DNA of 64,000 nt from Phycisphaeraceae bacterium. Its GTDB lineage: Bacteria > Planctomycetota > Phycisphaerae > Phycisphaerales > Phycisphaeraceae. The translations under genes were made by a program, and so were the position numbers. The DNA lies in the NCBI GenBank assembly GCA_028284155.1, contig JANQSF010000028.1:1-64000 (forward strand), given 5' to 3'. Positions within the stretch are counted from its first letter, which is position 1. Every line of letters begins with the position of its first letter. Below, one piece after another: positions 31,075-49,472 of this stretch. The notes beneath the pieces are model-generated. The model was not told the origin of the DNA. It saw only the letters and a list, made by a program, of their open reading frames with translations, and ran no database searches.

Positions 31075-31245
31075 GAGACACCTCCGGGGTGATTGGTTGC
31101 GGTCGGTTGGCGTGGGCGGTTGATCGGGGTCTGCGGACAGACCCGGCTTGGGGGCGCGGGCGGGCGTCCATGGTAATAGACGTATCGGGCGGGGGTTTGT
31201 CGGGATTGAGGGTGGGTGTGTGGGATGAAGGTGTGGGGTGGGCGT

Positions 31246-31269
31246 GCGAGCCGGGCCGTGTCGGCCCGG
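31246..31269. repeat. 24-bp dispersed palindromic word, copy 1
   Basis: The 24-mer starting GCGAGCCGGG with core CCGGGCCG tgt CGGCCCGG is identical to bases 35912-35935, which lie inside the second sulfatase gene. Here it is intergenic, between the divergent secretin-like and sulfatase genes. Confidence 0.85.
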
Positions 31270-31292
31270 ACAGGCGGGACCTTCCGCGGGGT

Positions 31293-31298
31293 TATGAT
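31293..31298 (+). promoter_or_regulatory. -10 element TATGAT of the first sulfatase gene
   Basis: TATGAT ends 33 nt before the sulfatase ATG, giving a predicted leader of about 26 nt. No clear -35 is visible. Confidence 0.4.
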
Positions 31299-31331
31299 GG
31301 GCGAGGACACCAAACGAGGTCAGGACGACAA

Positions 31332-33206
31332 ATGGACATGATGATGCGAGACAGGCGGTTGGAGCGTGGGTTGGGCCGGCGCGTGTGGGCGGCGGTGTGT
31401 TGGTCCGTCATTCTGGCGTGGGGGGCGGCTGGGGTGGCCGGCGCCAGGCCGCAAGCGTCGGGAGCGGACAGGCCGCCCAATGTCGTGCTGATCATGACGG
31501 ACGACCAGGGCTGGGGGGACGTGGGCATCCACGGCAACAAGCAACTCGACACGCCCCACCTCGACCGACTCGCCCGCGATGGCGTTCGGCTGAACCACTT
31601 CTACGTCAGCCCGGTCTGCGCCCCGACGCGCGCGAGCCTGTTGACCGGCCGATACCACGAGCGCACCGGTGTGTTCGGCGTCACGCGCGGCGAGGAGAAC
31701 ATGTACACCGACGAGGTGACGCTCGCCGAGGTGTTCAAAGCGGCCGGCTACGCGACGGGCTGTTTCGGCAAGTGGCACAACGGCTCGAATTGGCCGCACC
31801 ACCCCAACGCGCAGGGGTTCGACGAGTTCATCGGCTTCTGCGGCGGGCACTGGAACAACTACTTCGACACCGAGCTGGAACACAACGGCAAGACGTTCCG
31901 AAGCAGCGGCTACATCACCGACGTGATCACCGGCGCGGCGACGCGCTTCATCGCCACGAACAAGGACAAGCCATTCTTCTGTTACGTCCCGTACAACGCC
32001 CCGCACTCGCCGTGGCAGGTGCCGGACAAGTTTTACGACAAGTACAAGCAGCGCGGTTTGGACAACACGTTGGCCTGTGCATTCGGCATGGTCGAGAACA
32101 TCGACCACAACGTCGGCGTGCTGCTCAAGCAACTGGATGACCTTGGCGTGGCTGACAACACGATCGTGATCTTCATCACGGACAACGGGCCGAACACAGA
32201 TCGGTACAACGGCAACATGCGCGGCCGAAAGGGCAGCCCGGACGAGGGCGGCGTGCGTGTGCCGTGTTTCATCCGTTGGCCGAAGGGGATCAAGGGCGGA
32301 CGCGTGGTCGAGTCGATCACGTCGCACATCGACCTGCTGCCGACGTTGCGCACGCTCTGCGGCATCGACCCGAAGCAGACGCAGACCAAGCCGCTGGACG
32401 GTATCGATGTCAGCCCGTTGGTGCTGGGCGAGAAGGTTGACGCGGATTGGCCTAACCGGACGATCTTCAACCGATGGCGCACGCGCGGCTCGGTGCGGAC
32501 GCAACGCTGGCGGGCGACCCCGACGAAGGGCGGCGTGCCCGGTCAGGGATGGAAGCTTTACGACATGCAAGCCGACCCGGGGCAGACGAAAGATGTGGCG
32601 GTGCAGCATCCGGACGTCTTGAAAAAACTGCGCAACGCCTATGTCGAGAACACAACCGACGTGAACCGCATGCGCGGCCGGGACAAGCCCGTCTGGGTCG
32701 GGCACGAGAAGTGGCCGACCACCGAGTTGCGTGGCCACGAGGCGCATTTGCGACCGGTCAAGGGCAAGGGCATCAGCTACGTCGGCCGATCCGGCTGGGC
32801 CAACGACTGGATCACGAACTGGACGGACAAGAGCGCGCACGCGGTCTGGCCGGTGAAGGTCGTTCGCGAGGGGAACTACCGCGTGTCATTGCTCTACACC
32901 TGCCCGCCCAAGGCCGTCGGCAGCGCCGTGTACATCGGGGCGTCGTACGCGTCGGCCGAGCCGGACGTGTCGATCTTTCCCACGACCAAGAAGGTGAAGG
33001 TCAACGAGGCGTACGACCCGAAGCACGTGCCCAGCCCCGACCGCGTGCCACGCAAAGAGGTCTACGAAAAGGTGTGGCGAACGCTAAACCTCGGCCAGAT
33101 CAAATTGCTCCAGGGCGAGGCCGGCATCCACCTGCGCGCGGCCGCCATGCCCAACGGCCGGGCGATCGATGTCAAGGCGGTTCGGATTGAGTGGGTCGGG
33201 CCTTAG
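31332..33206 (+). CDS. exported sulfatase (arylsulfatase family)
   Basis: Hydrolyses sulfate esters, probably on polysaccharides outside the cytoplasm. 624 residues from the ATG at 31332. After a signal peptide (VCWSVILAWGAAGVAGA) the catalytic domain has PPNVVLIMTDDQGWGD (metal-binding Asp pair), the formylglycine motif C96-A-P-T-R100 followed by ASLLTGR, the active-site strand YATGCFGKWHNG, and the second metal site FITDNGPN. From about 510 a beta-rich C-terminal module follows (WITNWTDKSAHAVWPVKVV) that may bind carbohydrate. Formylglycine maturation needs a separate enzyme not in this window. Longer in-frame starts are rejected because they read through the divergent promoter region. Confidence 0.93.
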   Translation: MDMMMRDRRLERGLGRRVWAAVCWSVILAWGAAGVAGARPQASGADRPPNVVLIMTDDQGWGDVGIHGNKQLDTPHLDRLARDGVRLNHFYVSPVCAPTRASLLTGRYHERTGVFGVTRGEENMYTDEVTLAEVFKAAGYATGCFGKWHNGSNWPHHPNAQGFDEFIGFCGGHWNNYFDTELEHNGKTFRSSGYITDVITGAATRFIATNKDKPFFCYVPYNAPHSPWQVPDKFYDKYKQRGLDNTLACAFGMVENIDHNVGVLLKQLDDLGVADNTIVIFITDNGPNTDRYNGNMRGRKGSPDEGGVRVPCFIRWPKGIKGGRVVESITSHIDLLPTLRTLCGIDPKQTQTKPLDGIDVSPLVLGEKVDADWPNRTIFNRWRTRGSVRTQRWRATPTKGGVPGQGWKLYDMQADPGQTKDVAVQHPDVLKKLRNAYVENTTDVNRMRGRDKPVWVGHEKWPTTELRGHEAHLRPVKGKGISYVGRSGWANDWITNWTDKSAHAVWPVKVVREGNYRVSLLYTCPPKAVGSAVYIGASYASAEPDVSIFPTTKKVKVNEAYDPKHVPSPDRVPRKEVYEKVWRTLNLGQIKLLQGEAGIHLRAAAMPNGRAIDVKAVRIEWVGP

Positions 33207-33266
33207 CGCCTCGGCCGGCAAATCTGTTACATTGCCCTGCCCAACCTGAACCCCACGGAGGTCCAC

Positions 33267-34250
33267 ATGACAACCCCGAACCAACCCACCCGTCGCGGCG
33301 TGCTCAAGGGCGCCGCCACCGTCGCCGCAGCCGGCGTTGCCGCAACCGTCGTCGGCCCCGGCTGCGCCCACGCCAAACCCGCCAAGGTGCCGCCCAAGGA
33401 CTTCAAGGTGAGCAAAGGCAACATCAATCAGTCCGTCGTCCACTGGTGTTTCAACATCACCGAGAAGCCTGGGCACAAACCGATGACCGTCGCCGAGTTG
33501 GCCGGCCACGCCAAGAAGATGGGCGCCAACTCGATCGAACTGGTCAGCCCCGACAACTTCAAGATGCTGACCAACAACGGCATGACCTGCGCCATCGGCA
33601 CGGTTGACATCGGCGGCCCTCCGTTCATGAAGGGCTACAACAACCCGCGCTACTGGAAGCTGGTCATGGACGCGACGAAGAAGGCGATCGACGCCGCGGC
33701 CGAGCACAAGGTCAAGAGCGTGATCTGCTTCAACGGCTACTCGCAGCGTGACCTGGACGATGCGAACAGCGGCCACATCGGCCGAGAGGAAGGCGCGGAC
33801 AACTGCGTCAAGGGCCTGAAGCAAGTCATCGGCTACGCGGAGCAGAAGGACGTCACCCTCTGCCTCGAAATGCTCAACACCCGCGACGACTCGCACCCGA
33901 TGAAGGGCCACCCCGGCTACCAGGGCGACGACGTCGAATACTGCATCGACATCATCGAGCGCGTGGGGTCGAAGCACATGAAACTGCTGTTCGACGTGTA
34001 TCACGTGCAGATCATGAACGGCGACGTCATCCGTCGCATTCAGCAGCACCACGAGCACATCGGCCACTACCACACGGCCGGCAACCCCGGTCGGCGTGAG
34101 CTGGACGACGACCAGGAAATCAATTACCCAGCCGTCATGGAAGCGATCGCCAAGACAAATTACAAGGGGTACGTCGCGCAGGAATTCATCCCGACGTGGG
34201 ACGACAAGATGGCGGCGCTGCGCCACGCGGTGGCGTTGTGTGACGTTTAA
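33267..34250 (+). CDS. Tat-exported hydroxypyruvate-isomerase-like TIM barrel (1)
   Basis: 327 residues with twin-arginine signal TRRGVLKGAATVAAAGVAATVVG. The mature part is a xylose-isomerase-like TIM barrel of the hydroxypyruvate isomerase group: Glu in CLEMLNTRDDSHPMKGHPGY, Asp/His in LLFDVYHVQIMNGD, GHYHTAGNPGRRELDDDQEINYP and the final Glu in GYVAQEFIPT are the expected metal and catalytic positions. It would isomerise a small sugar or sugar acid outside the cytoplasm. GGAGG lies 6 nt upstream of the ATG. About half its residues match the next gene. Confidence 0.88.
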   Translation: MTTPNQPTRRGVLKGAATVAAAGVAATVVGPGCAHAKPAKVPPKDFKVSKGNINQSVVHWCFNITEKPGHKPMTVAELAGHAKKMGANSIELVSPDNFKMLTNNGMTCAIGTVDIGGPPFMKGYNNPRYWKLVMDATKKAIDAAAEHKVKSVICFNGYSQRDLDDANSGHIGREEGADNCVKGLKQVIGYAEQKDVTLCLEMLNTRDDSHPMKGHPGYQGDDVEYCIDIIERVGSKHMKLLFDVYHVQIMNGDVIRRIQQHHEHIGHYHTAGNPGRRELDDDQEINYPAVMEAIAKTNYKGYVAQEFIPTWDDKMAALRHAVALCDV

Positions 34251-34294
34251 GCGAGAAGCGATTAGCCATTAGCGGTCAGCATTCAGGGTTTAGC

Positions 34295-34312
34295 CGCGGA
34301 GCTTGCTCCGCG
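34295..34312. repeat. short hairpin of the TTTAGCCGCG family
   Basis: CGCGGAGC tt GCTCCGCG, 8-bp stem and 2-nt loop, preceded by TTTAGC. It has the same layout as the arm at 4455-4478. It lies between the two tandem isomerase-like genes. Confidence 0.6.
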
Positions 34313-34342
34313 CGTTGACGTGCCCACATCACGAGACCACCC

Positions 34343-35254
34343 ATGCTCAACCGACGCGAACTGATCCAGACGACGGCACTCACCGGCGCCGCGGCGCTCG
34401 TCGCCACCGGCCCGTCGTCCAACGCCCACGCCCACGACCGGCAGGCCTCACAACCGCCCAAGGACTGGAAGGTCAAGAACGGCCGCATCCGTCAGTCGGT
34501 CATGGGCTGGTGTCTCAAGCCGATCGCCGGGCCGGAGCTCGCCAAGCACTGCAAGGCGATGGGCCTGGTCGCGATGGAGGGCATCTCGGCGAAAGACTAC
34601 CCGGCTGTGCGCAAGCTCGGCCTGGGCATCTCGCTGGTCGGCAGCCACGGTTTCAAGAAAGGCCCGTGCGACTCAGCAAACAAGGACTTTTGCGTCGAGC
34701 GGCTGACCAAAGGTATCGACCTGGCGGCCGAGATCGGGAGCCCGAGCGTGATCACCTTCACCGGCATGCGCGCCAAGGGCAAAACCGACGCGCAACAGGA
34801 CGCCGCCTGCGTCGACGCTTGGAAGGCCGTCATCAAGCACGCCGAATCGAAGAAGATCAACCTCGTTCTCGAACACTTGAATAGCCGCGACGGCTCACAC
34901 CCGATGAAGGGCCACCCCGGCTATTACGGCGACCACGTCGACCACTGCGTCGACCTGATCAAGAAGGTCGGCTCGCCCAACATGAAGCTGCTGTTCGACG
35001 TGTACCATGTGCAGATCATGGACGGCGACGTGATCCGGCGGATCAATCAACACAAGGACGTGATCGGCCACTACCACACGGCCGGCAACCCCGGTCGGGG
35101 CGAGCTCGACGCGCACCAGGAGATCAACTACCCGGCCGTGATGCGCGCGATCGTCGCGACGGGCTACAAGGGCTACGTCGCGCAGGAGTTCATCCCGACC
35201 TGGGAAGATAAGGTCGCGTCGCTCCGCCACGGCGCGTGGGTGTGTGACGTGTAG
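34343..35254 (+). CDS. Tat-exported hydroxypyruvate-isomerase-like TIM barrel (2)
   Basis: 303 residues, tandem paralogue of the preceding gene. Twin-arginine signal NRRELIQTTALTGAAALVA. It shares NSRDGSHPMKGHPGYYGDH, LLFDVYHVQIMDGDVIRRI, GHYHTAGNPGR and GYVAQEFIPTWEDK with its neighbour, so the metal-site Glu, Asp, His and Glu are all kept. The first third differs more (LSKHCKAMG-type barrel start, CLKPIAGPELAKHC), which may reflect a different substrate. Both paralogues lie between two sulfatase genes on the same strand. Confidence 0.88.
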   Translation: MLNRRELIQTTALTGAAALVATGPSSNAHAHDRQASQPPKDWKVKNGRIRQSVMGWCLKPIAGPELAKHCKAMGLVAMEGISAKDYPAVRKLGLGISLVGSHGFKKGPCDSANKDFCVERLTKGIDLAAEIGSPSVITFTGMRAKGKTDAQQDAACVDAWKAVIKHAESKKINLVLEHLNSRDGSHPMKGHPGYYGDHVDHCVDLIKKVGSPNMKLLFDVYHVQIMDGDVIRRINQHKDVIGHYHTAGNPGRGELDAHQEINYPAVMRAIVATGYKGYVAQEFIPTWEDKVASLRHGAWVCDV

Positions 35255-35304
35255 CCGCTTGCAACTTAGCGCGATCCCAATCGTCAACGCGGCCGGGTCA
35301 TGTT

Positions 35305-35335
35305 TTGATCACCTGGTCAACAGGAGCGGTATACT
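35305..35335 (+). promoter_or_regulatory. promoter TTGATC-19-TATACT, near-leaderless, second sulfatase
   Basis: TTGATC at 35305-35310 and TATACT at 35330-35335. The -10 ends 9 nt before the GTG start, leaving a leader of at most a few nucleotides. No Shine-Dalgarno is seen between them. Confidence 0.5.
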
Positions 35336-35344
35336 CTCCGCCCC

Positions 35345-36823
35345 GTGACACCCGACCGCCCGAACATCCTGTGGCTTTGCACCGACCAGCAGCGGTACGA
35401 CACCGTCCGCGCGCTGGGCAACGACAAGATCAACACGCCGAACATCGATGCGCTGGTCGCGTCGGGCACGTCGTTTGATCGGGCGTATTGCCAAAGCCCC
35501 GTTTGTGCCCCGAGCCGGGCGTCGTTCCTGACCGGGCGGTACCCACGCACGACGGGCTGCCGGCAGAACGGCCAACAGATCAACGCCACCGAACGGCTCG
35601 TCCCGCGCATCATGGCCGACCAGGGCTATGCCTGCGGCCTGGCGGGTAAGCTGCACCTGGCCGCGTGTCAAGACCGCGTCGAGACGCGCATCGACGATGG
35701 CTACGCCGAGTTTCACTGGTCGCACCACCCCCCGCCGGACTGGGAAGAAAACGCGTACGCACAATGGCTGGCGGCGAAGGGCGTGCGTTGGGACGACATC
35801 TACCAACCGCCCGAAGACCCGCGCGAACGACTCGCATTCGCGGGCGCGCCGGCGGAACACCACCAGACGACCTTCTGCGCCGACAAGGCGATCGAGTTCA
35901 TCAACAAGCAAGCGAGCCGGGCCGTGTCGGCCCGGTCCCCCGGACACCCGTGGCTCTTCAGCTTCAACTGCTTCGACCCGCACCACCCGTTCGACCCGCC
36001 CGCGGACTTCTTGTCGAGGTACGACCCAGCCGACATGCCGTTGCCCGCGCGGCGTGTCGATGAATTAACCAACAAGCCGCGCTGGCAGCGCATCGATCAC
36101 ACCGCGTCGCGCGACGGCATCACCGGCTACAACGACGCCGAAATGACCGACGATGATCGCCGGCGTGTCACCGCCGCGTACTACGCGATGGTCGAACTGA
36201 TCGACCACAACGTCGGCCGCATGGTCGACGCGCTGCGCGAGACGGGCCAACTCGAGAACACGCTAGTCATCTTCATGTCCGACCACGGCGAGATGCTGGG
36301 CGACCACGGGTTTTATCTCAAAGGCCCCCACTTCTACGAGTCGGCCGTGCGCGTCCCGCTGGTCGTGTCCTGGCCGGGCCAGGTCAAGGCGGGCCAACGA
36401 TCCGACGCGCTGGTCGAATTGACCGACTTGGCGCCGACACTGCTCGACGCGGCCGGACTGGACGCGGCCAACGACCGCCAGCGGATGCAAGGGCGATCGC
36501 TTTGGCAGATCCTGACCGGCAAGGCCGACCCGACCCGCCACCGCGACGCCGTGTTCAGTGAGTACTACAACGCCTGGTCGCACCGCGGTGAGGCGTACGG
36601 GACGATGCTGCGCACCGACGACCACAAGATCGTGGTCTATCACGGCCTGGACGAGGACGACATCAACGGCGAACTGTACGACCTGCGCAGCGACCCGAAC
36701 GAGTTTGAAAACCTGTGGAACGACCCGGCCCACGGCGAGCTAAAGTCGCGCATGCTAAAGCGATGCTTTGACGCGAGTGTGTTTACGATGGACCCTGCGC
36801 CGCAGCGACTGGGGGACTTTTGA
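35345..36823 (+). CDS. sulfatase without signal peptide
   Basis: 492 residues starting at GTG 35345 directly with the catalytic domain (RPNILWLCTDQQRYDT). Formylglycine motif C54-A-P-S-R58 followed by ASFLTGR; further metal-site elements are CGLAGKLHLAA and FMSDHGEMLGDHGFYLKGPHFYE. No export signal is visible, so it probably works in the cytoplasm on imported fragments, in contrast to the first sulfatase. Residues 190-197 are encoded by a 24-bp dispersed repeat also found upstream at 31246. The C-terminus (YDLRSDPNEFENLW) is typical of the family. Substrate unknown. Confidence 0.92.
   Translation: MTPDRPNILWLCTDQQRYDTVRALGNDKINTPNIDALVASGTSFDRAYCQSPVCAPSRASFLTGRYPRTTGCRQNGQQINATERLVPRIMADQGYACGLAGKLHLAACQDRVETRIDDGYAEFHWSHHPPPDWEENAYAQWLAAKGVRWDDIYQPPEDPRERLAFAGAPAEHHQTTFCADKAIEFINKQASRAVSARSPGHPWLFSFNCFDPHHPFDPPADFLSRYDPADMPLPARRVDELTNKPRWQRIDHTASRDGITGYNDAEMTDDDRRRVTAAYYAMVELIDHNVGRMVDALRETGQLENTLVIFMSDHGEMLGDHGFYLKGPHFYESAVRVPLVVSWPGQVKAGQRSDALVELTDLAPTLLDAAGLDAANDRQRMQGRSLWQILTGKADPTRHRDAVFSEYYNAWSHRGEAYGTMLRTDDHKIVVYHGLDEDDINGELYDLRSDPNEFENLWNDPAHGELKSRMLKRCFDASVFTMDPAPQRLGDF
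35912..35935. repeat. 24-bp dispersed palindromic word, copy 2, inside a coding sequence
   Basis: Identical to 31246-31269. It is in frame and codes for residues 190-197 (ASRAVSAR) of the second sulfatase, in a loop just before the strand PWLFSFNCFDPHHPF. Confidence 0.85.
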
Positions 36824-36829
36824 CATTGT

Positions 36830-37019
36830 GAAGAGGATTAACGCAAAGTCGCGGAGGCGCGAAGGCGCCGAGTCTAAAAGGGGTTTGAAATCATGACTTC
36901 GACTCTAATTGCCCATCCAGTGCTGATCGTATGAATCTGAAATGACGCTCCAACTGTTCGTTTGATCGAATCCAACCCACCCACCTTCGCGCCTCTGCGT
37001 CTTCGCGTTCAACCTCTTC
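36830..37019. repeat. 36-bp imperfect inverted repeat, GAAGAGG...GGCGCGAAGG family
   Basis: Arms 36830-36865 and 36984-37019 match over 36 positions with five mismatches, enclosing 118 nt. The arms carry the AACGC-AAG-CGC-GAGGCGCGAAGG pattern; related words occur near 10938-10975 and in the gap at 23.7 kb. It fills the gap between the second sulfatase and the next isomerase-like gene. Confidence 0.8.
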
Positions 37020-37036
37020 CCCCCAAAGACCCAACC

Positions 37037-37855
37037 ATGCCCTTCACCCTCTGCCTAAACACTAGCACGATCAAACCGACCCCGTTGCTCGACAAGGTTC
37101 GGCTCACCGCCGAGGCGGGCTTCAAGGGCGTCGAGCTTTGGTTGAACGATATCTACGAGCACGTCGGCCAAGGCGGTGAGGTGCGCGACGTTGAGAAGGC
37201 GATCGCCGACCACGGGTTGATCGTGCCGTGCACGATCGCCATGCGTGCGTGGGGCGAGGCGAGCGACCTCGAATACCCGCTCATGCTCGACGAGTGCAAA
37301 CGCCGCATGGAGTTGGCCGCGCGCATCGGCTCGCCATACATCGTCGCGACACCGCCGCGTGATCCGTTCGACCTCGACGTCATCGCCGCCCGCTACAAAG
37401 ACCTGCTCGATATCGGGCGCGACGTCGGCATCAAGCCGGTCATGGAATACATCTCGTTCTTCAACTCAGTCACCCGGCTCGACCAGGCGTGGGCGATCGT
37501 ACAACAAGTGAACGACCCGGACGCGACGATCATCCTCGACGCGTTCCACACTTGGAACAGCGGCGGGTCGTTGGACGACGTGCGTGCGATCCCCGTCGAC
37601 CGCTTCGCCCACTACCACATCGACGACGGGTTAGCCCAGACGCCCGAGGGCAAGAAGCCCGGCCAGCAGACCGACCCCGACCGGGTCATGCCGGGCGACG
37701 GCGTGATCGACTTGGCTGCCGAGATCGCCGTTCTCCGCGAGGGCGGTTACGACGGCACGGTCAGCCTGGAACTGTTCAACCGCGACCTGTGGCAACGGGA
37801 CCCAGCCGACGTGCTCAAGCTCGGTTTTGAACGCGTCTCAGCCTTGCTTGACTGA
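37037..37855 (+). CDS. sugar phosphate isomerase/epimerase family TIM barrel, cytoplasmic
   Basis: 272 residues, xylose-isomerase-like barrel without a signal peptide. Barrel strands and likely metal ligands: GFKGVELWLND (Glu), KPVMEYISFFNS (Glu), TIILDAFHTWNSGGS (Asp, His), FAHYHIDDG (His) and YDGTVSLELFN (Glu). It resembles inosose/keto-sugar isomerases more than the two exported barrels upstream. The ATG at 37037 is chosen because the in-frame extension reads through the right arm of an inverted repeat. It probably continues the carbohydrate pathway of this locus. Confidence 0.88.
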   Translation: MPFTLCLNTSTIKPTPLLDKVRLTAEAGFKGVELWLNDIYEHVGQGGEVRDVEKAIADHGLIVPCTIAMRAWGEASDLEYPLMLDECKRRMELAARIGSPYIVATPPRDPFDLDVIAARYKDLLDIGRDVGIKPVMEYISFFNSVTRLDQAWAIVQQVNDPDATIILDAFHTWNSGGSLDDVRAIPVDRFAHYHIDDGLAQTPEGKKPGQQTDPDRVMPGDGVIDLAAEIAVLREGGYDGTVSLELFNRDLWQRDPADVLKLGFERVSALLD

Positions 37856-38257: not shown

Positions 38258-41200
38258 ATGATCATCATCAGCGTCGCCCGCGGCGCCGACGAGGGGCGCG
38301 TATTCAAGCTGCCGGAGGACGAGCCGATCCGCATCGGCCGACGCACCGGCGACGTGCCGCTCGACGACACGCGCGTCTCGAAAGACCACGCCGAGATCCG
38401 CCTCGAAAACGGCGAGCTGGTCATCGAAGACCTCAACTCGTCCAACGGAACCTACCTCAACCGCCGACTCGTCCGCAAGCCCACGCCGATCAACGACGGC
38501 GACCGCATCCGGCTGGGCAGAACGAAGCTCCTGTTCACGACCACGGCCGGCGCGGCCGCGCGTCAGGAAGACGAAGACGCCGCGTTCGACATCAGCGACC
38601 TGGCGCAGATCGACGACGAGTCGGAAGGCTCGGCCGTTGAGATGACGGTGGACGCCGAGTCGTCCGACGCGGTCGATCTGGGCGGCGCGCTGGTCAAGAT
38701 TCAACGGCGACTCGACGCGATTGCCAAACAGAGCGAGTCGGAGGACATCCTCCACGACATCCTTCAGAAGTTAGACGAACGGGCAACAACGCATGTGGAC
38801 GAGAAGGCGGACGATCGGCTCGACACCGTCGTTCAACAGGTCGAGCGTCTGGCTTCGCAGCCGACGACGCAATCGCTGATCGACGACTTACGTGAAACCC
38901 TGCAGACCGAGTTGGCGAAGGTCGCGCCGTCGAGCGAGATGGATGAGGCGACCGCCCAGCGGCTTGACGCGATTGTCGAGTCGATCGAGCAGCACGGGCA
39001 GCGGCAGCGTGAACTGGAAGCCAAGATTGCCGAAGCGTTGGAGGCGACGCAGGCGTCGGCCGTTGACCCCAAGACGTTGGCTGACGACATCCGCCAGGCG
39101 GTGGCCGACGCATCGCCCGACCTGCAAGGCAAACTCGACGAGTTGGCTGAACGGATCGACGCCGCGCAAGCACCGCGCGACGACGCCAGCCGCCTCGACT
39201 CAATCGTTGAACAGGTCGAGTCCCTGTCGTCGGACGAGCGCGACGCCGCGCTGGTCGAACGTATCGTCGCCGCCTTGCCGAAATCCAAGACCGACAAGAA
39301 AGTGCGTGATGCGCTGGACGCTTTGCTCAAGAAGGCGGACGCCGAACCGGCGGATGACCCGCGTATCGGGCAGATACTGGAAGCCGTTTCCGCCGACCGG
39401 ACCGACGATGTCGCCGAGCTGAATGCGACGCTCGACGCGCTGCTCGAAAAAGTGAACGCCGAGCCGGCGGACGACCCGCGCATCGGGCAGATCCTCGAGG
39501 CCGTTTCGACGGAACGGACCGATGACATCGCCGAACTGAAAGCAACACTCGACGCGTTACTCGAAAGAGCGAACGCCGCGCCAGCGGACGACCCGCGCAT
39601 CGGGCAAATTCTCGAAGCCGTTTCCGCCGCGCCGACCGACGACGTCGCCGACTTGAAGACGACGCTCGACGCGGCGCTCGAAAAACTTGACGCCCTCTCG
39701 GCCGCGCAGGCGGAGCGCGACGACACGCAGCGCGTGCTCGACGCGATCGCCGCCCTGCCCGAACCGGTGACGGCCGCGCAGATTGAAACCTTGACAGCGA
39801 AGCTCGACCTGCTGCAAGCGGCGCAAGAGAACAACGATACCGATCAGCCTGTGATCGAGGCCGTGCGTGAAGCGGGCGAGCAGAGCGCCGCGCGGATCGA
39901 GCAGGCCATCCAAGACCTGCGTGAGCAGATCGCGGCTCAGGCCGAAGCCGATGCATCGGCCGAGGACGACGACGCGCAGTCGATGCTGCTCAACAGCGTA
40001 CTGACGCGCGTCGAACAGTTGGCGTCGCCGCAACACCAGGCGCAACTCGTCGAGGCCGTACGCCAGGCGGTCGAAGCCGAGCAGGCCGGTGACGCGTCGG
40101 CCGACGAGATCCGTCAGAAGCTCGACGACCTGATCGAACGCATGCCGGACGACTCAGCCGGTCGCGACGCAAACGACAAACTCGACCTGCTGATCGAGAA
40201 AGCGGCGGCCGAGGCGAAGCTGGTCGCCGTCTTCGACGAGCGCATGACCGACCTGCTGGCGAAAGTCGAGCAGTCGTCCGGCGACACGCAACGCGATCAG
40301 ATCATTGAGGCGGTCCGGCAGGCCGTCGGCGAGCAATTGAATTCACAGGACGACTCGGCTGAACGCGAAGCGGCGTTGGCCGAGCGGCTTGACGCGATAC
40401 TGGAAGCGGTCACCGCCCCGCCGGCGGAGGCCACGCCCGACCCGCGGATCGACGCGTTGCAGACGACGCTTGCGGACGTGGCCGCCAAACTCGACGCATC
40501 GGGCAATCAGCAAGGCCAGACGTCGGGCGAAGGCCTTGCCGCGCTGCTTGCGCCGTTGCGCGAAGCCGTCGAAGCGCTGCAAGCGCAGCAAGGTCAGATC
40601 AACGATCGGCTCGCGCAGACCCCCACGCAGGCCAGCCAGGACGAGGCGCTCAAGCGCGTGACTGAAGCGGTCGAAGCGTCAACCACGCTACAAACCGAGT
40701 TGCGGAGCAACCCGCCGGCCGACGACCAGACGGCCGAGTTACTTGAGCAGGTGTTGGAGGCCGTCACCGAGCCGAAGACCGAGTCGGCCAACCCCGACCT
40801 CGCCGCAAAGCTCGACCAGTTGAACGAACGTTTGCAAAACCTGTCGCCGCCGTCGGCGGACGACTCGAACGGCAAGCAGGCCGAGCGAACGCTCGAGCTC
40901 TTGCAGTCCATCCACGACCGCCTCGGCGCGGAGGATCGGCTGGACAACGTGCTCGAAGCGGTCACGTCGCCGCAGGACGAGAAGGTCGCCGAGCGTCTGG
41001 CGGCGCTGGAATCGAAATTGGCTGAACTGCCCACGGCTGAGGAACAGCAAGACGCGCTGGCCGATATCGCACAACGTTTGCAATCGAGCGACGCTCCCGC
41101 AGATCAGTCGGCGCTGCTCGAACAAATCCGCGACATGGTGGCGCCGAGGGGCGAGAGCAATCTTGAGGCGATGCTGCAACAGGTGCTCGGCGCGGTCAAC

Positions 41201-44200
41201 GACAAGTCGGACGAGTCGGCGACGCGCCACACGCTGCAACAGATCGTCACCGCGTTGCGGACGCAGCAGAAGGTCCAGCGACAGACCTTCGCCGCGCTGG
41301 AACAGCTCGCCGACGCGACCGGCACCAAGCTCGACCTGCCGAAACCGAAGTCGACGCAGCTGGATGACGTACCCGAGCCGAGCGAGCCGGCAGCGCCTAG
41401 AGCCGCACCGGAATCGTTGGCTGAGTCGGCGCCCGACATGTCGGAGGCCGCGGCGATCGGGTCGATCTTCACGTCATCGCCACAAGACCTGACTCGCTGG
41501 CAACGGCTGACGCACCGCGCGCAGCAGCAGCCGATCGCCGCCGCGTTGCTGCTGGTCGGCGTGGTGGCGTTCATCGTCATCATGTACATGGTGATCACCG
41601 ACACGATGTTCGATCGTTCGGGCGGCGACACGGATGGCGGACTGGCCAACGCCAAGGCGGACGACAAGCAGGACGGCACGGACCCGGACGGCAGGTCGAG
41701 AAGTGCGGCCGACCTGCTGAAGGGGATGGGCCAACAGAACGGCTCGCGGACGAACGTCACACCGGTCGGTACAAACCCGGGCGCCGCCGACCTGAGCAGC
41801 ATCAAACGCGCGGTCTTCATTCTCGACATCTCCGGTCTGGAACCCGCCGACGCGCGGCGTGCGTTGGAGGCGGTTGACGCGCCGCTGATGAAGCTCCAGC
41901 CCACGCAGCAGGTCACGTTGATGGTGATCAACGGCGACTCACTGGAAGAAGCGCCGCCGACGGGGCTGAAGGCGGCGTCGGCGGAAGTGCAACGACAGCT
42001 ACGCCGCTGGGCGGACGGGTACGCCCAGTCTGCACGGGCCGAAGAAGTCGGCAAGCCGAGCGTGGCGATCAATCACGCGACGACGCAGTACGACCCCGAC
42101 CTGATCTGGATCTTCTCGGCCAATGTCGCGGGTGATCACCCGCGTCAGATGAAACCGGGCGTGTTGCTGGAGTTGCTCGACTACCTGAACGACAGCCGGT
42201 CGATCCGCATCAACACGACGCAGTTGTTTAAGATCGATCCGCAAGGCACGCTGCGGAAGATCGCCGACCAGCACGGCGGCGCGTACTCGTTCTACACGCG
42301 GCAGGCCGACCAGTCGCCAACGCCGAACGGCGCGACGCAGAGCGGCGCGAACCCGCGGACGCGCATCTGGCTAGACCCGGCGTCGACCGTGGGCGACCAG
42401 CTCGACGCCGACCGTTCACGCGACCTGGCTTTGCAGCGCAAGCAACAGCACGGCCCGGAGGACCCGCGCACGCTCGAGGCCGAAGTGCAGTGGGCGGTCG
42501 CGCTGCACCGCGAGGGGCAGTTGGCCCAGGCGCAGGCGCTGCTGACGCGCGTGCTGACGACGCTCAACCGTGTGCAGGGCCGATCGCACACGCAGACACT
42601 CGACGCCAAACAACACCTGGCGATGGTGCTGTCCGACCTGCGGCGACCGCAAGAGGCCGAACCGCACCTCCGCCAGGTGTTGTCCGTGCATCGCCAACGA
42701 CTCGGCGACACGCACGACCTGACGTTGATCACGTTCACGATGCTTGGCGAGGTGCTCTCGGCGCAGGGCAAACTGCCGGAGGCTGAACGCTACCTGAGGT
42801 CGGTCTACGACGCGCGGCGGCGCGAGGACGGGGCCGATCATCGCAAGACCTTGCTCGCGCAGGTCGCGTTGGCCGACGTGCTAGAAGCACGCGGTGAACT
42901 GAAAGACTGCGAGCAGATGCGTCGGGATGTGCTGGATGTCTGGCGTCAGAAGTTTGGCGCAGCCGACCCCGGCACACTCGAACGGTCTCTTGAACTGTCC
43001 AAGCTGTTGCGTTTCAAGGTCGGCAAGTTGGCCGAGGCCGACGCGCTGACCACGGCCGTCACCGCCGCGCTGACCCGTTCGGACAACCCGGCCGGCGACC
43101 CGGGCCTGCTCGAACGACGCGCAAGCCAACTGAACACCGATTCAAAACACGCCGAGTCGCTGGCGCTGCACGACAGCGCCATCCGGCTGTGCGTCATGGC
43201 GTTCGGCGACGATCACCGGCAGACGGCGCGCTGGCGGGGCGCGAAGGCGGAACTGCTCATCGAACTCGATCGCAACGGTGAGGCACGCCGGCTGCTCAAG
43301 GATGTGTTGGCCAGCCAGATCAAAGGTGTGGGCGTGCACGCCGAAGACACACAGCGCACGCGGGCCAACCTCGTCAAGCTGTTGCGACACATGGAAGCCC
43401 TGCCCGACGCGGCGATGCTGCAACACGACGTGGTCGTCGGCTACCGCGAGACGCGTGGGATCAACGACGAGAAAACGCTCGCCGCCATCGTCGAGTTGGC
43501 GGAGCTGTTCACCATGCAGCAGAAGTTGCGACAAGCGCTCGACCTGCACCGTTCGGTCCTGACCGCGCGTCGGCTGTCGCTGGGCGACGGCGACCCGGCC
43601 ACGCTGGTGTCGATGAACACGGTGGCCGGCCTGCTCTCGCGGCTGGGCAAGCCGGACGAGGCGTTGGCCATGCAGCAGCAGGCCGTTGACGCGGCCGTCG
43701 CGGCGCAGGGCGAGGAAGACCCGGCCACGCTCGCGTCGATGCACCTGCTCGGCATCGCTCAACGCGCACAGGGCAAACCCACCGAGGCGCAGGCGACGCT
43801 GCAACGCGTGCTCGACCTGCGCATCAAGGTGCTCAAGGAAGACCACGCCGACACGCTGGCGACGCGCGTCGCGCTGGCTTCGGTCCTCAAACAACTGGGC
43901 AAGTTCGACGAGGCGACGCCCCACTACCGCAAACTCGTCGAAGCCAAGAGCGAGCAATTGAGCGACACTAATGAAGACACGCTGGCGCTCAAAGTTGACC
44001 TGGCGGTCTGCCTGCACCAGACTGCCGACGACGCCGAGGCCCAACCGCTGCTCGAGCAGGTCGTCAGCGTCCGCCGCAACGTGCTGGGCGACCACGACCG
44101 CAAGACCCTGTCCGCGTTGAGCACACTGGCCGTCGTGCTGGAAAGCCAGGACAAGCTCAACGAAGCCAAGGCCAAGCGTCAGCTCGTGCACGCGTTGTGC

Positions 44201-44476
44201 CGCGCTCACCTGGGCGAGCGCGACCCGTGGTCGGTCGCCGCGACGCACCGATACGCGCTCGTGCTCGAGAAGCTCGAACAACAACAGCAGGCCGAACAAA
44301 TGCTGCGCGAAGCGGTCGTCGGCTACCACGCCGTGGCGACCGGCCAAAACATCGACCCCGAGTTCGTCGCGATGCTGCGCGAGGGCGTCGCCGCCTGCAA
44401 ACGCGTCCTGGGCAGCACGCACCCCGACACGCTGCGATCGCAGTCGCTGTTGACCACGGTGTTGGAGCAGCGGTGA
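38258..44476 (+). CDS. giant FHA / coiled-coil / transmembrane / VWA-like / TPR protein
   Basis: 2072 residues. An FHA domain (1-95) has the full phosphothreonine-reading core: IGRR near 27, RVSKDHAEI near 40 and DLNSSNGTYLN near 59. Residues about 130-1060 are a long acidic Ala/Asp/Glu/Leu-rich helical rod of degenerate repeats (LDAI, QIxEAV, LxxLxxKL), with 39-residue tandem units near 364-480. One transmembrane helix lies near 1092-1113. After it, about 1180-1345 looks like a von Willebrand A domain (AVFILDISGLEPADARRAL, DLIWIFSANVAGDHP, LRKIADQHGGAYSFY). From about 1380 to the end are many TPR units of the 42-residue bacterial type. Predicted topology: FHA and rod in the cytoplasm, VWA and TPRs outside. 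A signalling scaffold linked to Ser/Thr phosphorylation is plausible; no kinase gene is in the window. ACAGGAGCG precedes the ATG. Confidence 0.9.
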   Translation: MIIISVARGADEGRVFKLPEDEPIRIGRRTGDVPLDDTRVSKDHAEIRLENGELVIEDLNSSNGTYLNRRLVRKPTPINDGDRIRLGRTKLLFTTTAGAAARQEDEDAAFDISDLAQIDDESEGSAVEMTVDAESSDAVDLGGALVKIQRRLDAIAKQSESEDILHDILQKLDERATTHVDEKADDRLDTVVQQVERLASQPTTQSLIDDLRETLQTELAKVAPSSEMDEATAQRLDAIVESIEQHGQRQRELEAKIAEALEATQASAVDPKTLADDIRQAVADASPDLQGKLDELAERIDAAQAPRDDASRLDSIVEQVESLSSDERDAALVERIVAALPKSKTDKKVRDALDALLKKADAEPADDPRIGQILEAVSADRTDDVAELNATLDALLEKVNAEPADDPRIGQILEAVSTERTDDIAELKATLDALLERANAAPADDPRIGQILEAVSAAPTDDVADLKTTLDAALEKLDALSAAQAERDDTQRVLDAIAALPEPVTAAQIETLTAKLDLLQAAQENNDTDQPVIEAVREAGEQSAARIEQAIQDLREQIAAQAEADASAEDDDAQSMLLNSVLTRVEQLASPQHQAQLVEAVRQAVEAEQAGDASADEIRQKLDDLIERMPDDSAGRDANDKLDLLIEKAAAEAKLVAVFDERMTDLLAKVEQSSGDTQRDQIIEAVRQAVGEQLNSQDDSAEREAALAERLDAILEAVTAPPAEATPDPRIDALQTTLADVAAKLDASGNQQGQTSGEGLAALLAPLREAVEALQAQQGQINDRLAQTPTQASQDEALKRVTEAVEASTTLQTELRSNPPADDQTAELLEQVLEAVTEPKTESANPDLAAKLDQLNERLQNLSPPSADDSNGKQAERTLELLQSIHDRLGAEDRLDNVLEAVTSPQDEKVAERLAALESKLAELPTAEEQQDALADIAQRLQSSDAPADQSALLEQIRDMVAPRGESNLEAMLQQVLGAVNDKSDESATRHTLQQIVTALRTQQKVQRQTFAALEQLADATGTKLDLPKPKSTQLDDVPEPSEPAAPRAAPESLAESAPDMSEAAAIGSIFTSSPQDLTRWQRLTHRAQQQPIAAALLLVGVVAFIVIMYMVITDTMFDRSGGDTDGGLANAKADDKQDGTDPDGRSRSAADLLKGMGQQNGSRTNVTPVGTNPGAADLSSIKRAVFILDISGLEPADARRALEAVDAPLMKLQPTQQVTLMVINGDSLEEAPPTGLKAASAEVQRQLRRWADGYAQSARAEEVGKPSVAINHATTQYDPDLIWIFSANVAGDHPRQMKPGVLLELLDYLNDSRSIRINTTQLFKIDPQGTLRKIADQHGGAYSFYTRQADQSPTPNGATQSGANPRTRIWLDPASTVGDQLDADRSRDLALQRKQQHGPEDPRTLEAEVQWAVALHREGQLAQAQALLTRVLTTLNRVQGRSHTQTLDAKQHLAMVLSDLRRPQEAEPHLRQVLSVHRQRLGDTHDLTLITFTMLGEVLSAQGKLPEAERYLRSVYDARRREDGADHRKTLLAQVALADVLEARGELKDCEQMRRDVLDVWRQKFGAADPGTLERSLELSKLLRFKVGKLAEADALTTAVTAALTRSDNPAGDPGLLERRASQLNTDSKHAESLALHDSAIRLCVMAFGDDHRQTARWRGAKAELLIELDRNGEARRLLKDVLASQIKGVGVHAEDTQRTRANLVKLLRHMEALPDAAMLQHDVVVGYRETRGINDEKTLAAIVELAELFTMQQKLRQALDLHRSVLTARRLSLGDGDPATLVSMNTVAGLLSRLGKPDEALAMQQQAVDAAVAAQGEEDPATLASMHLLGIAQRAQGKPTEAQATLQRVLDLRIKVLKEDHADTLATRVALASVLKQLGKFDEATPHYRKLVEAKSEQLSDTNEDTLALKVDLAVCLHQTADDAEAQPLLEQVVSVRRNVLGDHDRKTLSALSTLAVVLESQDKLNEAKAKRQLVHALCRAHLGERDPWSVAATHRYALVLEKLEQQQQAEQMLREAVVGYHAVATGQNIDPEFVAMLREGVAACKRVLGSTHPDTLRSQSLLTTVLEQR
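39347..39697. repeat. three tandem 117-bp units inside the FHA gene
   Basis: Units start at 39347, 39464 and 39581, each coding 39 residues beginning PADDPRIGQILEAVS and ending in LDALLEK-like helix; the third diverges at its end. Codon-level similarity is high, so the expansion is recent relative to the rest of the rod. Confidence 0.85.
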
Positions 44477-44507: not shown

Positions 44508-44513
44508 CCATTG

Positions 44514-45347
44514 ATGCCTGCCAAAGCGAGCCAGACGACGGACGTCGACGACGCGCAGCTTGTCGCGTGGCGGGACCGTCTGCAAACGCTCGAACGGTGT
44601 CTGGATCAAGCGGCACAGAGCGAGTGGCGATGGGTCTGGAACGTCCGCCGACGCATCGTCGAATACCTGCTTCGACGCTACGGCAGGGAACAGGTCGAAA
44701 ACGCCGGTATCGACTTGCCCGTCGATGGCGATTCACAGGTAGCCGATTACAACGACGTTTCACCGGAGCCGTACCGCTCGCGCCGACTTGCGTCAGCCAA
44801 ACAGCTTCAGCGCGACGAGCACGCGTCATTGCGTGACGCGCAGAGCATCCGCCGGACACTCCAACACACCGAGGAAGCCAACCGGGAGCGGTACGACGAG
44901 TGGGAGCAGGACACGCAACGGTTGCTCGAAGAACACGCCGCGATCATCGCGGAGTTCCGTAGGCGTGCCGGGCCGGTCTGCATTGCATCCCCTGATTGGC
45001 CCGGTCGAAACCCCAAGCCGATTCACCCAACTGCACTCTCGCGTATCCCGCAAGTACTCGCTTTGAGCGTGACCGCGGGGATCGTCCTGTGGCGTTGCAC
45101 TGTTGCCTACGTGATGGACTCTCTCTCACCTGCGTCGTGGTGGTTTGTCGCCGCATCGATTGTCCTGATCGGACTCATTGTCACGCGTATCCGAATCCAA
45201 TCGATGCCGGGCACGACGATCCGTGGACCCATCCGTCCCGTCACGCCCCGTGAATTTGGGTACCACGTGGTCTTGGCGATGGTGAACTACACCGCGTCGT
45301 TCTGCATTGCTGTCTTGACTGTCTCCGATCTTGTTCGCATTGAATGA
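44514..45347 (+). CDS. hypothetical membrane protein with N-terminal coiled coil
   Basis: 277 residues, no family recognised. The first ~145 residues are charged helices (RDRLQTLERCLDQAAQSEWRW, EEANRERYDEWEQDTQRLLEEHAAIIAEF). Three hydrophobic segments follow: IPQVLALSVTAGIVLWRCTVAYV, SWWFVAASIVLIGLIVTRI and VLAMVNYTASFCIAVLTV. So a cytoplasmic coiled-coil head anchored by a C-terminal membrane domain is likely. It lies 37 nt after the giant FHA gene but has its own apparent leaderless promoter. Confidence 0.7.
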   Translation: MPAKASQTTDVDDAQLVAWRDRLQTLERCLDQAAQSEWRWVWNVRRRIVEYLLRRYGREQVENAGIDLPVDGDSQVADYNDVSPEPYRSRRLASAKQLQRDEHASLRDAQSIRRTLQHTEEANRERYDEWEQDTQRLLEEHAAIIAEFRRRAGPVCIASPDWPGRNPKPIHPTALSRIPQVLALSVTAGIVLWRCTVAYVMDSLSPASWWFVAASIVLIGLIVTRIRIQSMPGTTIRGPIRPVTPREFGYHVVLAMVNYTASFCIAVLTVSDLVRIE

Positions 45348-46843: not shown

Positions 46844-48043
46844 TTGACTGTTCAATGCCCGCAATGCCAGCAGTCTTGCAACGTGCCCGATGATCTGGCC
46901 GGCCAGGCGTGCAGGTGCGACTACTGCGGGCATGCCTTCACGCCTGCCAACGGTCCCCACCGGTCGGCCGACGCGCCCGACAAGTATGGCTCCCCGCACC
47001 GGTCGTCACGAAAGGTCAGCAACGCCGCGATCACCGCGCTGAATTTCGGCCTGCTCGGCATCCTGTTCGCGCCGCTCGGGTTGATCGCCATCATCTTCGG
47101 CGTCATCGCTTTGAAACAGACGGGCGATCCGCAGACGAACAGGGGCGGCGCGGGGCTGGCGATCATCGGTGTGATCTGCGGCGCGCTCGGCCTGCTGGCC
47201 GTCCCGTTCCTGGGTCTCTTGCCCGTACTGAGCCATGTGCGACGCAATGCGCACATGAAGACCAACGCGGTGCAGATGCGCGGTATCCAACAAGGTTTGA
47301 TCACGTTCTGCCCGAGCAACAGAACAGTCACAGGCGACGGCTTCTATCCAGGCCTGAATCGGGACGGAACGCTGAAAGCCCCTTTCGACTGGCCGACGCA
47401 GGCCGGTACTTATCGAGCCAACACGGTGAGCGGATGCCAACCGGCCACTCGTTACACCCTTATGTTGAACGCTTCATACTTTACACCCGGGCACATGCTC
47501 AACCCGCTGGACGTCGGCCACTCGCTCAACCGAAACGACGACAACGAGACGGGAACGTTTGTTGAAATCTCACCGATCGGCACACCCGGCGCGGGCGGGC
47601 CGGACGTCGACACCGTCTTATCGACGAATAACTTTTCGTACGCCATGTTGCAGATCAATAAAGCCGACGAGCACCGCCGCCGGGAATGGGGCGAGACAAT
47701 CAACCCGCAAGCGAGCGTCCTCGGCGACCGCAACATCGGATCGGCCGCCGCCGCCGGGCGGGCTGAGAGTGTCTGGACAGACGAGGGCTCGGGCGAGTGG
47801 GAAGGGACGGTTGTCTTCAACGACGGTTCTACGAAGTTTCTTTCAACGGCGGACTCGGCGGGCAACCTCGCACCGATTGCCCAAAACACTCGCTACAACC
47901 AGCAACCGACCAACGCGTTGGACAACCTGTTCGACGAAAGCGCGCCCGGCGAAGTCCCCGGTGCAAACTGCGAGTTGGTCTTTCAGGATTGCACGAGCGA
48001 CGCGAATCATCACGGCGTGTCGGACGTGATTCAGCCGCCTTGA
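46844..48043 (+). CDS. zinc-ribbon, DUF4190, pilin-like membrane protein (1)
   Basis: 399 residues. It starts at TTG 46844, set by alignment with the ATG of the paralogue (TVQCPQCQ against IVQCPQCQ). Residues 4-31 form a CPQC/CDYC zinc ribbon of the MJ0042/prokaryotic type. After a short linker, 55-130 is a DUF4190-like double transmembrane unit (NAAITALNFGLLGILFAPLGLIAIIFGVIAL, GAGLAIIGVICGALGLL). The rest reads like the exported part of a type IV pilin-like protein: HMKTNAVQMRGIQQGLITF, then SYFTPGHMLNPLD and the strand GTVVFNDGSTKFL. No prepilin peptidase site is visible. Function unknown. Confidence 0.78.
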   Translation: MTVQCPQCQQSCNVPDDLAGQACRCDYCGHAFTPANGPHRSADAPDKYGSPHRSSRKVSNAAITALNFGLLGILFAPLGLIAIIFGVIALKQTGDPQTNRGGAGLAIIGVICGALGLLAVPFLGLLPVLSHVRRNAHMKTNAVQMRGIQQGLITFCPSNRTVTGDGFYPGLNRDGTLKAPFDWPTQAGTYRANTVSGCQPATRYTLMLNASYFTPGHMLNPLDVGHSLNRNDDNETGTFVEISPIGTPGAGGPDVDTVLSTNNFSYAMLQINKADEHRRREWGETINPQASVLGDRNIGSAAAAGRAESVWTDEGSGEWEGTVVFNDGSTKFLSTADSAGNLAPIAQNTRYNQQPTNALDNLFDESAPGEVPGANCELVFQDCTSDANHHGVSDVIQPP

Positions 48044-48191: not shown

Positions 48192-49472
48192 ATGATCGTT
48201 CAATGCCCGCAGTGTCAGAAGTCTTACAACGTGCCTGATGAGCAGGCCGGCAGGCAGGCCAAGTGCGACGCGTGCGGTCAGGTCTTTACGCTTGACACAG
48301 AGGCCTCGGCCGGGCGGGTGGACGAACCGAACCCTTACGGCGGGCATGCGGCGGCCGACCAGTCCGGCGGATACGGCGCAGCGCCGCCGACGGCGCAACC
48401 CGGCTATGGCGGCGGATCGACTTACGCTCAGCCGGCCGTGCCAGCGCGGACGACCAGCGGCGTGGCGGTCGCCGCGCTGGTCTGCGGGCTGATCGGGATC
48501 CTGGTCGCACCGATCGGGTTACTCGCGATCATCCTCGGCATCGTCGCGCTGACGCAGACCGGTAAGGCCGAAAACAATGTGGGCGGCGGCGGCATGGCCG
48601 TCGCCGGCATGGTCTGCGGGGCGATCGGACTGGTGCTTGGCGTCGTATTCCTGCTCATCGCCTTGATGCTGCCCGCTCTTGGCACCGCCCGAAACACCGC
48701 AAGAAAGATGACTAACAGCACGCAGATGCGCGGCATCCATATGGGGATGGTTACGTTTTCACAAAACAACAGGACATCGACCGGCGACGGGTTTTTTCCA
48801 GGCCTCAAGTCGGACGGCAGCACCGTGCCGACGTTCACCTGGCCGAGCGCACAGGGCACTTTCGCTTCGAGTTCGGCCGCCGGCTGCGACCCCGCGACGC
48901 GCTACACCGTCATGCTCAATAAGTCGTTTTTCACACCGGAGTACATGCTCAACCCGGTCGACAAGGGCGCGACGGTGAATCGCAGCAACGCAAACGCGAC
49001 GGGGGTGTTTCAAGAGGTTATGCCGATCGGCTTTCCCGGCGGCGCGGACACGACTGTGTCGTCCAACAACTTCTCGTACGCGATGTTGCAGATCAACGAC
49101 GCCGACGAAGACCGCCGCAAGGAGTGGTCGGAGACGATCAACTCGCAAGCCATCGTCATGGGCGACCGCAACGTCGGGCCGGCAGCCGGCAGTGGGCAGG
49201 CCGAGAGCGTCTGGACCGAGGCGGGGTCGGGCGAGTGGGAAGGGACGGTCGTATTCAACGACGGTTCGACCAACTTCATTTCAGAGATCGACATGAACGG
49301 CAACCTCGGCCCGGTCGCGAGCAACACGCGGTACAACCTGCAGCGGACCAACCCGCTGGACAACCTGTTCGACGAATCAGACCAGGGCGAGACGCCGGGG
49401 GCCAACTGCGAACTAGTCTTCGCTGATTGCACGAGTGACGCCAACCAGTACGGCGCACCGGACAAGCCGTAG
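48192..49472 (+). CDS. zinc-ribbon, DUF4190, pilin-like membrane protein (2)
   Basis: 426 residues, tandem paralogue of the gene before it. CPQC and CDAC ribbons lie in the first 30 residues, then a Gly/Tyr/Ala/Pro-rich linker (about 40-85) longer than in copy 1, the DUF4190 membrane pair (GVAVAALVCGLIGILVAPIGLLAIILGIVAL, MAVAGMVCGAIGLVLGVVFLLIALMLP) and the pilin-like body with LPALGTARNTARKMTNSTQMRGI and GTVVFNDGSTNF. The two copies agree best in the exported half, including the C-terminal GANCELVF-DCTSDAN. GGGGG lies 7 nt before the ATG. Confidence 0.8.
   Translation: MIVQCPQCQKSYNVPDEQAGRQAKCDACGQVFTLDTEASAGRVDEPNPYGGHAAADQSGGYGAAPPTAQPGYGGGSTYAQPAVPARTTSGVAVAALVCGLIGILVAPIGLLAIILGIVALTQTGKAENNVGGGGMAVAGMVCGAIGLVLGVVFLLIALMLPALGTARNTARKMTNSTQMRGIHMGMVTFSQNNRTSTGDGFFPGLKSDGSTVPTFTWPSAQGTFASSSAAGCDPATRYTVMLNKSFFTPEYMLNPVDKGATVNRSNANATGVFQEVMPIGFPGGADTTVSSNNFSYAMLQINDADEDRRKEWSETINSQAIVMGDRNVGPAAGSGQAESVWTEAGSGEWEGTVVFNDGSTNFISEIDMNGNLGPVASNTRYNLQRTNPLDNLFDESDQGETPGANCELVFADCTSDANQYGAPDKP

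Follow-up and report, generated by a model that had tools for sequence, protein, structure and literature searches.

An FHA-vWA membrane protein of 2072 residues extended by a C-terminal TPR array in a Phycisphaeraceae bacterium

The window analysed here is a stretch of 64,000 nucleotides from a Phycisphaeraceae bacterium (assembly GCA_028284155.1, contig JANQSF010000028.1, positions 1 to 64,000) and encodes, at 38258..44476 on the forward strand, a protein of 2072 residues in which an N-terminal FHA domain is followed by a long helical rod, a single transmembrane (TM) helix, a vWA domain and an array of TPRs. This protein is an FHA-vWA membrane protein extended by a TPR array, and its predicted architecture is well supported by sequence comparison and structural models. 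The full FHA-rod-TM-vWA-TPR chain is unique to this gene, although its parts and most of their order are not, and across 51 genomes of the GTDB family the C-terminal TPR array is the sole part specific to the window protein.

An earlier note on this DNA had described a 2072-residue FHA, rod, membrane, VWA-like and TPR protein and treated the combination as one without recognised counterparts. Examination of each segment by hidden Markov models (HMMs) and structure prediction indicated that all the named parts are real. The claimed isolation did not hold, since the order FHA-linker-TM-vWA recurs in the GTDB family, the vWA domain is that of a group of membrane-tethered proteins already in the literature (PMC12204202) and proteins combining FHA, a TM helix and a periplasmic part are known, as in GltG (PMC3169522).

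Domain architecture of the 2072-residue protein

The gene and its segments are as follows.

38258..44476, + strand: whole gene, 2072 residues, FHA - rod - TM - vWA - TPR
38258..38557, + strand: FHA domain, residues 1-100 (Pfam core 24-87)
38558..41497, + strand: cytoplasmic helical low-complexity rod, residues 101-1080
39312..39685, + strand: 39-residue tandem repeat within the rod, residues about 352-476, 3.2 copies
41528..41602, + strand: single TM helix, residues about 1091-1115, lacking the S-x3-H motif of motor contact
41792..42319, + strand: vWA domain, residues about 1179-1354, with a degenerate metal-ion-dependent adhesion site (MIDAS)
42308..42397, + strand: flexible linker of ~30 residues between vWA and TPRs, residues about 1351-1380
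42389..44473, + strand: about 16 TPRs of the kinesin light chain (KLC) type, residues 1378-2072

The frame is open through 2072 codons, i.e., about 6.2 kb without stops, and a Shine-Dalgarno-like AGGAG lies a short way upstream of its ATG. Third-position G+C ranges from 0.81 to 0.92 and codon-position G+C is alike across all segments, so no foreign or out-of-frame block is visible in the open reading frame.

The FHA domain was matched by Pfam PF00498 at residues 24-87 (E 2.5e-18), with R28, S41, H44 and N63-G64 at the canonical positions. R28 and S41 align with Arg81 and Ser95 of the solved GarA (Rv1827), the residues that contact phosphothreonine in that protein (PMC6151718). As predicted from sequence, this is a canonical FHA domain with its phosphothreonine-contact residues intact, as had been proposed earlier.

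The rod (~960 residues, about 101-1080) is rich in Ala, Asp, Leu, Glu and Gln, and its hydrophobic residues recur with a period of 3.4-3.5 (z 12-14 versus shuffled sequences), which supports the helical rod of about 900 residues initially proposed. The tandem repeat within it was detected by Tandem Repeats Finder with a period of 117 bp. A Pfam scan of the rod returned no significant family, and GapR and VMAP-M8, considered as candidate identities, were discarded as both matched below threshold. The rod aligns over 614 residues (45 bits; 100 shuffles reached at most 25.4) with the rod of an FHA-rod-TM protein that comes from a different family within the order, and thus is not wholly private to the window protein. 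This second protein (L079:3827-7315:+, genome G033) has 1162 residues, a window-like rod and a short tail after the TM helix.

Mean hydropathy reaches 2.96 at residues 1095-1113 and no other 19-residue stretch exceeds about 1.03, in agreement with one TM helix. The charges flanking the helix favour, by the positive-inside rule, a cytoplasmic N-terminus in 14 of 17 FHA-type proteins (two are equal and one is opposite), while a signal-like hydrophobic N-terminus is present in 27 of the 28 TPR proteins encoded in operons of the paralogous vWA system described below. Taken together, these data predict that the vWA and TPRs lie beyond the inner membrane, and this topology, with a cytoplasmic FHA domain and the vWA-TPR portion across the inner membrane, coincides with the one first suggested.

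Pfam alone gave a weak signal for the vWA domain (E 0.07-0.18), which was resolved by building an alignment of relatives: VWA_3 was matched by 38 of the 44 aligned relatives, and the resulting family HMM matched the window domain with E 2.8e-49. The AlphaFold model (pLDDT 87) retrieved solved VWA domains in Foldseek, and hence the "VWA-like" segment can be assigned to the vWA fold. An alignment mixing vWA and kinase-TPR sequences (A2) was left out of folding, because its kinase rows had aligned onto the vWA domain. The MIDAS is degenerate, with DISGL where relatives have DxSGS and SAN where they have SDN.

C-terminal to the linker, Pfam TPR_12 covers residues 1378-2071 (E 2.8e-69) and TPR_10 also matches. 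The predicted model contains 32 helices, or about 16 hairpins, in an array that is intact across ~690 residues, the extent originally estimated, and it superimposes on the TPRs of kinesin light chain with a TMt of about 0.85. When vWA and TPRs were modelled together, the linker had pLDDT values below 50 and the two parts adopted no fixed mutual orientation (pTM 0.41).

The FHA-vWA subfamily and the short vWA proteins of motor operons

Relatives that are named in public records belong to Phycisphaerales-like planctomycetes, and within the GTDB family the vWA domain occurs in two settings, namely long FHA-type proteins and short TM-vWA proteins. The FHA-type proteins, roughly 620-1310 residues long, begin with an FHA domain, continue with a cytoplasmic linker that varies among them and a single TM helix, and end in a vWA domain. 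Besides the window protein, FHA and vWA were found in one frame in at least 13 proteins from 12 other genomes; three further FHA-type proteins (L063, L065, and L073) have an uncertain FHA call due to an unresolved 5' end or frame (a different frame or a contig end). These relatives share with the window protein the domain order up to the vWA and the lack of a motor motif, but differ from it in that most keep the MIDAS and many have an acidic, disordered linker in place of a helical one. They all end 3-42 residues past the vWA domain, and therefore only the window protein has the TPR array; in agreement with this, none of the TPR matches across the 51 family genomes lies within an FHA-vWA gene except that of the window.

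Most of the short proteins (about 310-480 residues) are encoded in operons that also carry a TPR gene, a gene of the MotA/TolQ/ExbB type and one or two ExbD genes, in the order vWA-(vWA)-TPR-ExbB-ExbD-ExbD. They match the "vWA force transducers" reported in the PVC group (Mol Biol Evol 2025; PMC12204202), which consist of a TM helix carrying an SHLS/His motor motif (typical of the first family), a linker and a vWA domain, and are accompanied by TPR, tolQ-like and paired tolR-like genes. In that work no phenotype was described, nor was force transduction by the proton motive force demonstrated for any member. The vWA domain of the window protein is, on sequence evidence, paralogous to that of these ExbB/ExbD-linked short proteins. 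It resembles the force transducers in its vWA family, in the single TM helix preceding a vWA domain on the far side of the membrane and in having a TPR partner, here in cis. It differs from them in its N-terminal FHA domain, its rod, its degenerate MIDAS, its own KLC-type TPRs, the absence of the SHLS/His motif and its location outside the motor operon.

Motor operons differ in how many vWA paralogues they contain, since two loci (L132 and L182, 0.5-2.4 kb) carry three consecutive vWA genes followed by TPR-ExbB-ExbD-ExbD. In another genome, a motor-type vWA frame (L184:4904-7255:-, G024) is preceded by a phosphoribosyltransferase domain, reflecting either a fusion or a wrong start. In the genome of the window, a motor-type vWA pair lies on contig C84 (L070) and a TPR-ExbB-ExbD set on C76 (L169), genes that form one operon in most relatives.

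The two settings can be told apart by the TM helix and by the phylogeny of the vWA domain. The S/T-x3-H motif was absent from the TM helix of the window protein and 15 FHA-type relatives as well as, by eye, from L214 (0/17 in total), and was present in 56 of 67 short vWA proteins, a set that includes some partial loci. A maximum-likelihood tree of vWA domains separated 16 FHA-type sequences from 69 short ones (branch support 97/94); one short protein, L037, is an exception, and the motor motif is missing from it too, while no ExbB was seen next to it. The window vWA has a long branch in this tree and groups with L073 (100/89). Loss of the motif together with the separate branch indicates that the FHA-type proteins constitute, as far as sequence can tell, a distinct and motor-uncoupled subfamily. 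No description or published name of this FHA-vWA subfamily was found in the literature searched.

The neighbourhoods of FHA-vWA genes display local synteny among relatives only, e.g., a dihydrofolate-reductase-like gene (identified by reading its sequence) at six loci, and plasmid records yielded FHA-only matches. All 201 genomes tested from the order contain the vWA family as a whole, and of 294 genomes sampled from the phylum 216 had a match at E <= 1e-8.

Proposed function and rival explanations

Based on this evidence, it can be tentatively proposed that the window protein is a bitopic inner-membrane adaptor of the FHA-vWA subfamily, uncoupled from the motor and regulated by phosphorylation, that scaffolds envelope partners through its periplasmic vWA-TPR portion. 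The FHA domain, with its long reach, would bind a Thr-phosphorylated cytoplasmic protein, either a Ser/Thr kinase or a kinase substrate; this binding would recruit, cluster or hold the protein at a particular site, thereby placing the periplasmic vWA-TPR scaffold there, and the scaffold could then engage partners in the envelope, for example the vWA or TPR proteins of the ExbBD system. Its role would be that of a phospho-regulated tether or adaptor and not of an energy-coupled transducer. A broader and rather speculative version is that FHA-vWA proteins may act as an arm through which the vWA-TPR-ExbBD envelope machinery is controlled from the cytoplasm, Thr phosphorylation setting where or when motor-driven vWA proteins act, with vWA and TPRs fused in this case into one phospho-tethered trans-envelope chain. 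In the motor operons the TPR protein is separate and secreted, whereas in the window protein the TPRs are in the same chain. A subfamily that has a transducer vWA, has dropped the motor contact and has added an FHA domain suggests that these envelope machines may be under Ser/Thr kinase control, which is directly testable, and the window protein would be useful for this purpose because reader, vWA and TPR array are in one chain. FHA and vWA proteins jointly under kinase control are also described for ArnA (FHA) and ArnB (vWA), regulators of the Sulfolobus archaellum (PMC12852372), which are two separate proteins that bind each other when phosphorylated, unlike the single chain of the window with its domains on opposite sides of the membrane.

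Several observations weigh against the adaptor proposal. The window TPRs are of the KLC type and differ from the operon TPR protein, and the window vWA is divergent (end branch of 2.03 in the tree); because of both features, the idea that these TPRs replace the operon partner derives from arrangement alone. In addition, in the neighbourhoods compared FHA-vWA genes are linked neither to ExbBD nor to a kinase by an operon or a conserved neighbour, and co-occurrence says little, as the vWA family is present in every genome of the order that was tested.

The main competing explanation, credible though on balance doubtful, is a scaffold for Ser/Thr kinases in which the periplasmic KLC-type TPRs share ligands or pair with the TPR arrays that membrane kinases have in the periplasm, the FHA domain binds an autophosphorylated kinase on the cytoplasmic side, the vWA domain acts as a spacer and ExbBD is not involved. 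Among TPR matches from the taxonomic order, the best ones examined are C-terminal arrays in membrane Ser/Thr kinases (Pkinase in 5/5), and the genome of the window has two other TPR matches, both within kinase frames, C40 (1116 residues) and C156 (1579 residues). Like the window protein, these kinases carry a TM helix followed by a TPR array of the same kind; unlike it, they have a kinase domain in the place of the FHA domain and lack a vWA domain, and Pfam detected no Pkinase in the window protein. The intact FHA domain also fits such a scaffold. However, TPR identity is 20-35%, a level easily reached by repeats, and since the FHA-vWA relatives have no TPRs the scaffold could account for the window protein only. 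The earlier note had suggested a search for a co-occurring Ser/Thr kinase; the genome has 23 Pkinase matches (and nine FHA matches), and the window TPRs are like those of kinases, but no kinase was detected by Pfam among the flanking genes scanned between 31 and 52 kb.

An energy-coupled force transducer resembling TolA, TonB or GltG, with ExbB-ExbD driving the TM helix, is a very unlikely reading. It draws on the transducer family of the vWA domain and on the precedent of GltG, an FHA-TM-periplasmic protein of the Myxococcus gliding machinery that binds the TolQ-type motor protein AglR (PMC3169522). Among FHA-TM-periplasmic proteins that work with a motor, GltG is the closest functional analogue: it has a cytoplasmic FHA domain, one TM helix and a large periplasmic part, and its system includes TPR proteins and a motor of the TolQ/R type. 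Its C-terminal domain is TonB-like, whereas the window protein ends in vWA-TPR; no TonB/TolA domain was detected in the window protein by the Pfam scan, and the GltG model NCBIfam NF033760 gave no match at E 0.01. Moreover, the gene does not adjoin ExbB or ExbD genes, and TolA/GltG-like motor coupling was rejected because the contact motif is missing, not only from the window protein but from all 16 FHA-type relatives inspected. Energy coupling through the window TM helix is unlikely.

It is also conceivable, albeit improbable, that an FHA-vWA gene was recently joined to the TPR end of a gene for a kinase-TPR protein and that the join has little or no selected function. The single occurrence of the architecture in the GTDB family, the degenerate MIDAS, the very long branch and the flexible linker at the join would all be compatible with such an event, whereas a 6.2-kb frame kept free of stops, strong codon-position bias in all parts and an intact TPR array argue against it. 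The same continuity of frame across the vWA-TPR join and uniform codon-position G+C make a chimera of two genes created during assembly extremely improbable, even in a genome of 161 contigs with no close relative for comparison of the join. Recent fusion and assembly artefact retain these small probabilities because the genus is represented by one genome.

Neighbouring genes

The Pfam scan of the flanking genes between 31 and 52 kb also detected no TPR, tolQ-like or tolR-like gene beside the 2072-residue gene. Immediately downstream, the following gene begins 34 bp past its stop codon.

44511..45347, + strand: gene of 278 residues with a hydrophobic C-terminal part, no family assigned

This gene is possibly an operon partner of the FHA gene. 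As a conserved partner it was discarded, given that weak homologs were present in 3 of 40 relatives, on contigs other than those of the FHA-vWA genes.

Further downstream, 46844-48043 and 48192-49472 are adjacent paralogs, each combining a zinc ribbon with a DUF4190 membrane domain. On the other side, the region 31089-37855 contains two sulfatases interleaved with three TIM barrels of the AP_endonuc_2 type and is likely a polysaccharide or sulfate-ester cluster.

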